Source: Ferruginibacter sp.
GTDB taxonomy: Bacteria > Bacteroidota > Bacteroidia > Chitinophagales > Chitinophagaceae
DNA: 64,000 nt
NCBI GenBank assembly: GCA_017983695.1
Contig: JAGOAX010000001.1
Location: 248,001 to 312,000 of the forward strand
Reading direction: 5' to 3'
The first letter of the stretch is position 1. Each line of letters opens with the position of its first letter. Shown in pieces: positions 31,242-32,417 of the stretch. The notes below the pieces were generated by a model that did not search any database, was not told the origin of the DNA, and saw nothing but the letters and a program-made list of their open reading frames with translations. Both the position numbers and the translations under genes were made by a program.

Positions 31242-31670
31242 ATGAACATCTATGTAGGAAATCTTAGTTGGACAATGACCGACGATGATTTAATGAATCT
31301 CTTCACAGAGCATGGTACTGTAACAAGTGCTAAAATTTTAAAAGACAAAATGAACGGCCGCAGTAAAGGTTTTGGGTTTGTTGAAATGGAAGACGATGAA
31401 GCTGCTAAAGCTGCAATCGCTGCATTAAACGAAACTGAAGTTCAGGGTCGTAAATTAATTGTTAACGAATCTCAACCACGTCAGGAAGGCGGTGGTGGCG
31501 GCGGCTACAAGAAAAGTGGCGGCGGTGGTTACGGCGGCGGTGGTAGCAGAGGCGGTGGCGGCTACGGCGGCGGCGGTGGTAGCAGAGGCGGTGGCGGCGG
31601 CTACGGCGGTGGTGGCAGAAGCGGCGGCGGCGGCGGTAGAAGCGGCGGCGGTTACAACAGAGATTTTTAA
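31242..31670 (+). CDS. glycine-rich RRM RNA-binding protein
   Basis: A 142-residue protein. One RRM domain at 1-75 with RNP2 IYVGNL (3-8) and RNP1 KGFGFVEM (about 44-51), then a Gly/Tyr/Arg/Ser tail (about 85-142) built of GGGG, YGGGG and SRGGGG units. Bacterial RRM proteins of this kind are frequent in Bacteroidota and cyanobacteria and bind mRNAs, sometimes in cold response. The long Gly-rich tail resembles eukaryotic and cyanobacterial RGG-type tails that promote condensates. The leader may be about 115-120 bases long, which suggests post-transcriptional control. A strong terminator follows. Confidence 0.92.
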   Translation: MNIYVGNLSWTMTDDDLMNLFTEHGTVTSAKILKDKMNGRSKGFGFVEMEDDEAAKAAIAALNETEVQGRKLIVNESQPRQEGGGGGGYKKSGGGGYGGGGSRGGGGYGGGGGSRGGGGGYGGGGRSGGGGGRSGGGYNRDF

Positions 31671-31720: not shown

Positions 31721-31865
31721 TGCGTTGAAATTGCAAGTATTTTAAAAATATACGAGATATACTTTGCTAAAAAGACCATTGTCAAAACACCTGGTTAATT
31801 TATTTATTAAAACCAGTGATAAGAATAATGAAAGGAAAGCCATACCATAAGATATTACTGCAAAT

Positions 31866-31902
31866 AAAAAATCCTGTAAACTTAACGTTTACAGGATTTT
31901 TT
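31866..31902. terminator. bidirectional terminator after the tRNA-Asp remnant
   Basis: Stem AAAAAATCCTGTAAAC and exact complement around TTAAC, with A/T runs on both sides. On the minus strand it follows the tRNA-Asp remnant, as the original terminator of a tRNA gene would. Confidence 0.85.
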
Positions 31903-31909
31903 ATTAATC

Positions 31910-31974
31910 TGCGGAGCGGACGGGACTCTAACCCGTCCCCAACCAGTTGGGGATGACAGGGGAGCATCCTAACC
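31910..31974 (-). pseudogene. 3' remnant of a second tRNA-Asp
   Basis: Read on the minus strand, the remnant starts at GGTTAG of the D-loop and ends at the acceptor 3' strand. The first 21 bases match the intact tRNA-Asp at 19 positions, including the anticodon GTC; the last 25 bases (T-arm plus acceptor) match at 24. Between them the anticodon stem is lost and replaced by a CCCCAACTGGTTGGGG hairpin. The 5' acceptor strand and 5' D-arm are missing. The T-loop TTCGAGT reads TTAGAGT; this C-to-A change makes the TAG stop of the GIY-YIG gene. Confidence 0.85.
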
Positions 31975-32248
31975 CTTGATATTTAATATCATGTTGTAGT
32001 TGATTTTTAAAGCTTTTAGATAGTGCTACTATTTGCTGGTGACTATACTTTTTAAGCACTATCTCTCTTTTTAATGCAGTTGTTTTATTGTCAAATATCT
32101 CGATATGGAAAAGCTGCCAGGGAATTTTAGCAGCAGTATATTTTGATTCTTTATTATTATGCTGTTGCAGTCGGGTTAATGGTTGCAAAGAAAACCCTTT
32201 GTAAAAAGAGCCATCCTTTTCACTTCGTATGATGTAAACGTAAAACAT
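31928..32248 (-). CDS. GIY-YIG nuclease family protein
   Basis: A 106-residue single-domain protein. FYVYIIRSE at 2-10 is the GIY-type strand and FYKGF at 15-19 the YIG-type strand; LTRLQQHN at about 24-31 holds the expected catalytic Arg and ALKREIVLKK at about 58-67 the expected Glu. Family members are small nucleases related to UvrC and homing enzymes. The last 15 or so residues are encoded by the tRNA-Asp remnant, and the stop lies in its T-loop. The start codon is 7 bases after the U-tract of the tRNA-Asp terminator. The open frame continues upstream through the tRNA, but the ATG at 32248 gives the domain start. Confidence 0.82.
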   Translation of the reverse strand: MFYVYIIRSEKDGSFYKGFSLQPLTRLQQHNNKESKYTAAKIPWQLFHIEIFDNKTTALKREIVLKKYSHQQIVALSKSFKNQLQHDIKYQGLGCSPVIPNWLGTG

Positions 32249-32254
32249 GGGTAA

Positions 32255-32284
32255 TAAAAAAGGCCGTCTTAAGAGACAGCCTTT
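32255..32284 (-). terminator. intrinsic terminator directly after tRNA-Asp
   Basis: On the minus strand AAGGCTGTCT, CTTA loop, AGACGGCCTT (one G-U pair), then TTTTT. The stem begins at the tRNA 3' end. Confidence 0.85.
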
Positions 32285-32285
32285 G

Positions 32286-32359
32286 CGGAGCGGACGGGAC
32301 TCGAACCCGCGACCTCTGCCGTGACAGGGCAGCATTCTAACCAACTGAACTACCGCTCC
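32286..32359 (-). tRNA. tRNA-Asp (GTC)
   Basis: A 74-base cloverleaf on the minus strand: acceptor GGAGCGG / CCGCTCC, D-loop AGTTGGTTAGA, anticodon loop CTGTCAC with GTC, T-arm CGGGTTCGAGTCCCG and discriminator G. CCA is not encoded. A -7 box TATCTTTG lies 59 bases upstream. A degenerate copy of its 3' part lies about 310 bases downstream. Confidence 0.95.
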
Positions 32360-32417
32360 AACTACCCAAGTGCTGAGTTCAAAATCAAAAATTGACCTTC
32401 ACTCTTTTTTGGGAGGG

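Follow-up and report, generated by a model that had tools for sequence, protein, structure and literature searches.

Small GIY-YIG nuclease genes between an intact tRNA and a hairpin-bearing tRNA copy as putative homing-like units of bacterial tRNA genes

How does a nuclease gene of 106 codons come to be flanked by an intact tRNA gene and a broken copy of the same tRNA, and does this arrangement reflect mobility? The question is raised by a locus in the window analysed here, a stretch of 64,000 nucleotides from Ferruginibacter sp. The preliminary description had read the minus strand as tRNA-Asp, terminator, GIY-YIG gene, tRNA 3' remnant and second terminator, an order confirmed by tRNA calls, a PF01541 match and repeats. 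The features are as follows, with tRNA* denoting the displaced tRNA-Asp copy:

32285-32359, minus strand: intact tRNA-Asp(gtc), called by ARAGORN and Rfam
32253-32284, minus strand: terminator-like hairpin and T-run (AAGGCTGTCTCTTAAGACGGCCTTTTTTA) between tRNA-Asp and the GIY-YIG reading frame, read from the sequence
31928-32248, minus strand: GIY-YIG nuclease reading frame, 106 aa, ATG at 32248-32246 (open reading frame listing, translation, PF01541 with E 5e-14, AlphaFold2)
31954-31974, minus strand: tRNA*, part from D-loop to anticodon loop, 19/21 bases by sequence alignment
31936-31953, minus strand: 18-nt hairpin TCCCCAACTGGTTGGGGA in tRNA*, composed of TCCCCAAC-TG-GTTGGGGA, read from the sequence
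31910-31935, minus strand: tRNA*, T-arm and 3' acceptor strand, 25/26 bases by repeat search
31863-31905, minus strand: second terminator, a perfect 19-bp inverted repeat followed by a T-run, by repeat search

The whole tRNA* spans 31974-31910 on the minus strand. Its likeness to tRNA-Asp had been put at 24 of the last 25 bases and 19 of 21 around the D-loop and anticodon; we recovered the latter and a match of 25/26, which comprises the tRNA-Asp 3' end plus the next base, at a repeat score of 24 (shuffled maximum 11). While the retained bases had been recognized, the hairpin had been overlooked, which stands in tRNA* in place of the 12 nt CGGCAGAGGTCG, that is, the 3' anticodon stem and variable loop. 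The nuclease reading frame runs through this hairpin and stops (TAG) inside tRNA*, with its final ~15 codons and the stop falling within the copy. The second terminator is presumably the original one of tRNA-Asp; in empty relatives, a terminator-like hairpin is found directly 3' of the tRNA. In a DNA search with the whole unit as query, only the window site was matched in the own genome, and hence no second tRNA-Asp was detected there. The locus adjoins an unrelated small RNA-binding protein (31242-31670) with an RRM-like N-terminus and a long repetitive Gly/Arg-rich tail.

A comparison of tRNA-Asp loci with and without the unit in related genomes had been proposed as a check. We retrieved the accA locus of 30 genomes and read the stretch past tRNA-Asp, a gene divergent from the adjoining accA throughout the genus; empty, occupied and scar forms were all found. 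Nineteen loci with enough sequence were empty, displaying tRNA-Asp and a terminator-like hairpin without GIY gene or remnant. Three of the 30 were occupied, by an intact gene in the window genome (G000) and by decayed genes in G018, where stops interrupt the frame, and in G003, where the layout is mirrored, with a hairpin-bearing 5' part upstream, the decayed GIY gene, and an intact tRNA-Asp downstream. The search for GIY genes yielded a further genome, G005, in which the gene is intact, the layout reversed and the hairpin-bearing 5' part upstream, the downstream tRNA-Asp copy being broken or cut off by the contig end. Finally, in G068 an intact tRNA-Asp and its terminator are followed by an ATG and then at once by a hairpin-bearing 3' remnant. 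A remnant without the nuclease gene had been named as a case that would refute insertion. It was met only this once, and the ATG and the hairpin-bearing remnant make the locus read as a scar from which the GIY gene was deleted.

The empty, decayed, reverse-layout and scar forms in relatives show the accA/tRNA-Asp unit to be an insertion polymorphism, and the two mirror layouts at one tRNA-Asp locus suggest independent insertions. Presence or absence at a fixed site among relatives, a criterion for homing endonuclease genes, is fulfilled at this locus, and a homing-type gene is expected to pass through just such gain, decay and loss at one site. The same loci, in conjunction with the tandem arrays described below, support the earlier proposal that an inserting element displaced the old 3' part with its terminator, but the insertion point lies inside tRNA-Asp, in the anticodon/variable region, and not at the tRNA 3' end as had been assumed. 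In two genomes, G010 and G019 (loci L105 and L108), the accA contig breaks off right at the 3' end of tRNA-Asp or a few bases from it, perhaps owing to repeated units that blocked assembly.

The notion of a minimal tRNA unit with a single nuclease gene holds, whereas that of an isolated, odd locus does not, as the unit belongs to a large family; spread by cleavage-driven homing remains an inference. The own genome carries three small GIY-YIG genes, each beside a tRNA (Leu(gag), Asp and Ser(tga)), and such adjacency is also seen in 40 relatives and in 150 genomes of the order Chitinophagales, 104 of which contain a profile match, although the profile also catches a few unlinked relatives. We examined 133 GIY-YIG genes of the order, of which 18 were uninformative owing to the end of the fetched stretch. 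Among the 115 informative stand-alone genes, 100 have a tRNA gene at most 350 nt away, all on the same strand, and no opposite-strand tRNA occurs within this distance. Several of the 15 unlinked genes represent a different small GIY-YIG clade or distal array members, and no tRNA was found near seven UvrC/exonuclease-type or six other-small-clade GIY-YIG genes (1.7-3.2 kb stretches). The linked genes of the order cover 22 identified anticodons. On the tree of 94 tRNA-linked nucleases, an unselected sample, tRNA type changes 42 times, compared to 71.9 with shuffled labels (minimum 66). The nuclease lineages follow tRNA type, which fulfils the target-specificity criterion of homing genes.

A scan of named genomes employed the tRNA-Met clade only as query, and the breadth for other tRNAs does not derive from it. 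It returned 80 loci, 61 of them with a tRNA within 350 nt, which is tRNA-Met(cat) in 52 of these. The linked loci belong to Bacteroidota, Balneolota, Ignavibacteriota, Cloacimonadota and KSB1, and a locus lacking a nearby tRNA call was found in Marinimicrobia. Units are present in Pedobacter, Niastella and Cyclobacterium, for example. Many of the genomes are fragmented metagenome assemblies, in which contigs often end at tRNA/GIY repeats. Horizontal transfer between phyla was considered and not upheld: the topology of the cross-phylum tree suggests mixing, but separation by phylum into one clade survives an AU test (p 0.20). A phage or plasmid vector was likewise discarded: viral contigs gave no match, and the GIY-YIG matches obtained from phages and plasmids were only distant (<60% identity).

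The anatomy of the units is uniform in that the order tRNA, GIY, tRNA is constant and the size about 0.35-0.45 kb. Layout A has the intact tRNA upstream and tRNA* downstream, layout B the opposite; the hairpin is located on the side of the displaced half, and the intact tRNA in occupied units is not visibly altered. We tested 150 GIY genes by alignment and located a tRNA* beyond 127 of them, with none detected for the other 23. Many tRNA* lack the 5' half, and several GIY-YIG copies are pseudogenes. Tandem arrays (tRNA, GIY, broken copy, GIY and so forth) contain up to three units, as in Longitalea luteola (L293), where the three are near-identical; the repeating unit of arrays of this type comprises T-arm/acceptor half, terminator, GIY and hairpin. 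In the tRNA-Met clade, the portion of tRNA* beyond the hairpin displays 94% identity to the tRNA-Met of its own host versus 65% to that of other hosts (35/35 loci), and its T-stem equals that of the host in 32/35 loci, against 5% expected for random pairing. This resemblance indicates that the part past the hairpin is host-derived, or homogenised with the host copy. Upstream of the intact tRNA, two loci (L024 and L051) harbor one more hairpin-bearing tRNA copy, older and decayed, which suggests that insertion has recurred in both directions. In three others (L003, L020 and L061), ATGCC(C/T).. follows the terminator 3' of tRNA* and looks like the beginning of a second GIY gene that was lost.

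The hairpin is a recurrent property of the displaced copy. A perfect hairpin with an arm of at least 6 is present in 102 of 122 distinct tRNA*, compared to 12 in shuffles and 20 in intact tRNAs. Enrichment was judged by this unbiased comparison with shuffled and intact tRNAs; an analysis of covariation by shuffled hairpin partners was set aside, being partly circular since the hairpins had been pre-chosen for perfect arms. The tRNA* hairpins are GC-rich, sit in the anticodon arm, the variable region or the D-/T-loop, and in 77 cases start with TCC and end with GGA. In the tRNA-Met clade the hairpin, TCCGCC/GGCGGA and sometimes TCCGTC/GACGGA, follows CTCATA, the former version being kept across phyla. 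Other tRNAs possess TCCCG(A/C).../...(T/G)CGGGA in the anticodon arm, and in a few tRNA* the D- or T-loop holds a palindrome of 20 nt of the CCTGCCTGCCGGCAGGCAGG type. Different perfect stems occupy about the same tRNA-Asp position as the window hairpin in G003, G005, G068, L164, L175 and L211; thus, position and pairing are kept in tRNA-Asp units while the sequence changes.

Palindromes of the TCCCGA/TCGGGA kind, with variable loops, are also dispersed outside tRNAs in the genus (e.g. L128, L129, L299 and L305). The window genome contains 13 (0 for the reversed pattern), and they are present in 36/40 relatives, reaching about 40 in some with the reversed-pattern control near 0. They may be REP-like elements forming a family akin to the tRNA* hairpin. 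Pure terminators were ruled out as an explanation, as several palindromes lack a T-run and are located elsewhere. The palindrome search also recovered two loci missed by the GIY search, with a TCCCGA...TCGGGA hairpin within tRNA-like sequence (L304, at about 197250 of contig C30 of the own genome, and L309, at about 1618 of contig C10 of G006), which are probably the scars that lost units left at other types of tRNA.

As regards the protein, its assignment to the GIY-YIG superfamily is secured by the PF01541 match (E 5e-14), the GIY, YIG, Arg and Glu motifs, and the fold. Residues Y16, G18, R26, E62 and K66 are invariant and Y5 and H30 nearly so, and the median dN/dS of 0.11 (11 pairs) indicates that the protein is under purifying selection where intact. 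The window protein consists of the GIY-YIG catalytic domain alone (about residues 1-70), and the family members, of ~80-100 aa, have no separate DNA-binding module; classical GIY-YIG homing endonucleases do possess one. An AlphaFold2 model of the window protein (mean pLDDT 93) has UPF0213 proteins and SLX1, a branched-DNA nuclease, as nearest solved structures, with I-TevI more distant, and UPF0213/SLX1-type proteins are the closest sequence matches as well.

Aggregated, we read these loci, with a probability of roughly 0.72, as homing-like units that invade tRNA genes, restore one tRNA and displace a hairpin-marked copy, a reading that rests on sequence comparison, with cleavage and the role of the hairpin inferred. 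The nuclease would act on, and possibly cut, an unoccupied tRNA gene near the anticodon/variable region, for which there are no cleavage data. Recombinational repair would then insert a half-tRNA, in some cases a terminator, the GIY gene and the hairpin, leaving one full tRNA and pushing the old half aside; the unit would bring a new 3' half in layout A and a new 5' half in layout B. The hairpin may serve as the cis-acting end of the unit, its structure being recognized by the SLX1/UPF0213-like nuclease, or alternatively as a mark protecting the displaced copy from cutting or reuse. Repeated cycles or unequal recombination could build the arrays, and units would be removed by decay and deletion. 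By analogy, the family may work like a homing endonuclease gene. Against the homing-like reading, it is unexplained why the intact tRNA in an occupied unit escapes recutting, neither cleavage, transposition nor transfer has been observed, and some loci lack a detectable tRNA*. How a protein without a separate DNA-binding module selects one tRNA type is also unexplained. It is conceivable, yet with somewhat less than even odds, that the units represent an undescribed class of mobile element, an autonomous, catalytic-only GIY-YIG cassette with a hairpin end that restores the tRNA from a host half-tRNA and forms arrays, in which the hairpin and not a DNA-binding domain defines the end, by a mechanism distinct from homing endonucleases, integrases and transposases. 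Because cleavage is only inferred, we leave this open and do not claim it.

Other explanations must be weighed against the homing-like unit. The hairpins could be independent REP-like palindromes invading useless tRNA copies, the unit then being merely a nuclease gene plus a tRNA duplication. The dispersed TCCCGA...TCGGGA elements, some outside any tRNA context, are compatible with this, as is the only modest correlation, within the genus, between their number and that of GIY units (Spearman 0.47, p 0.02, with hand-assigned GIY counts). We nevertheless regard it as unlikely, considering that the hairpin is present in most tRNA*, recurs at a roughly constant position when independent units share a tRNA, and retains TCCGCC/GGCGGA across phyla in the tRNA-Met clade. 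A further possibility is a tRNA-directed toxin/decoy pair, in which one type of tRNA is cut by the GIY-YIG protein and an RNA derived from tRNA*, hyperstable in its anticodon arm, serves as decoy or antidote. Isoacceptor-specific nuclease lineages would be expected here, and the hairpin, conserved in structure, often replaces exactly the anticodon arm; however, the location inside a tRNA gene, the empty/occupied polymorphism, the scar and the mirror layouts would be left unexplained, many tRNA* have no 5' half and some hairpins reside in the D- or T-loop, making such a system quite improbable.

A passenger gene carried along in ordinary duplications of host tRNAs, and spread by vertical descent with loss, appears very improbable. 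Tandem duplication of tRNA clusters happens anyway and the cross-phylum tree does not contradict separation by phylum, but vertical descent does not readily accommodate two mirror layouts at one tRNA-Asp/accA locus in one genus alongside 19 empty sites, nor the same nuclease type at 22 identified anticodons when other GIY-YIG genes lack the adjacency. A leftover of an integrase-type island that used tRNA attachment sites can practically be dismissed: a direct repeat of the tRNA 3' part is typical of such islands, but there is no integrase, the nuclease gene is the only one in a unit of about 0.4 kb at well over a hundred loci, and the repeat copy bears a hairpin. Congruent with this, the locus in the window fails the criterion of an adjacent integrase gene for such an island, the GIY-YIG frame being the only one between tRNA-Asp and remnant.

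The family shows that very small, common mobile units are housed in essential tRNA genes within a major bacterial phylum, and it suggests a function for many of the stand-alone proteins annotated as 'GIY-YIG nuclease family proteins'. The units also provide a source of the short palindromes and of the partial and duplicated tRNA genes of these genomes, and offer a testable case of a nuclease without DNA-binding domain finding 22 or more different tRNA genes.

We found no description of tRNA-linked bacterial GIY-YIG genes in the open-access literature, and no close phage or viral-contig copy of the family nuclease. Integron cassettes, IS200/IS605 and REP/RAYT elements are small units with a structured hairpin end and include arrays of reading frames and structured sites. 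The family, in contrast, is without tyrosine recombinase or Y1 transposase, and has an altered copy of the target tRNA as its structured site. Islands that integrate into tRNAs insert inside the gene, restore the tRNA and leave a direct-repeat remnant, all of which the family shares; it differs in the absence of an integrase, in the occurrence of both 3'- and 5'-restoring layouts and in the hairpin of the remnant. UPF0213 and SLX1 resemble it in their minimal GIY-YIG domain and are closest in sequence and fold, but are housekeeping or uncharacterised genes. A survey of the GIY-YIG superfamily reported no tRNA linkage for bacterial stand-alone genes (PMC1564403). The nearest described system is SegB of T-even phages, a free-standing GIY-YIG homing endonuclease whose gene lies between phage tRNA genes and which targets the tRNA region (PMC2988022), and which drives tandem amplification of the tRNA and segB segment, where the 5' end of the tRNA recombines with the 3' end of segB (PMC13096335). 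Thus, a GIY-YIG gene among tRNA genes, a targeted tRNA region and tandem amplification make up the likeness. SegB resides in phage, whereas the present family is found in the bacterial chromosome as a bare catalytic domain, with a duplicated target tRNA of which one copy is hairpin-marked, and with isoacceptor-specific lineages.
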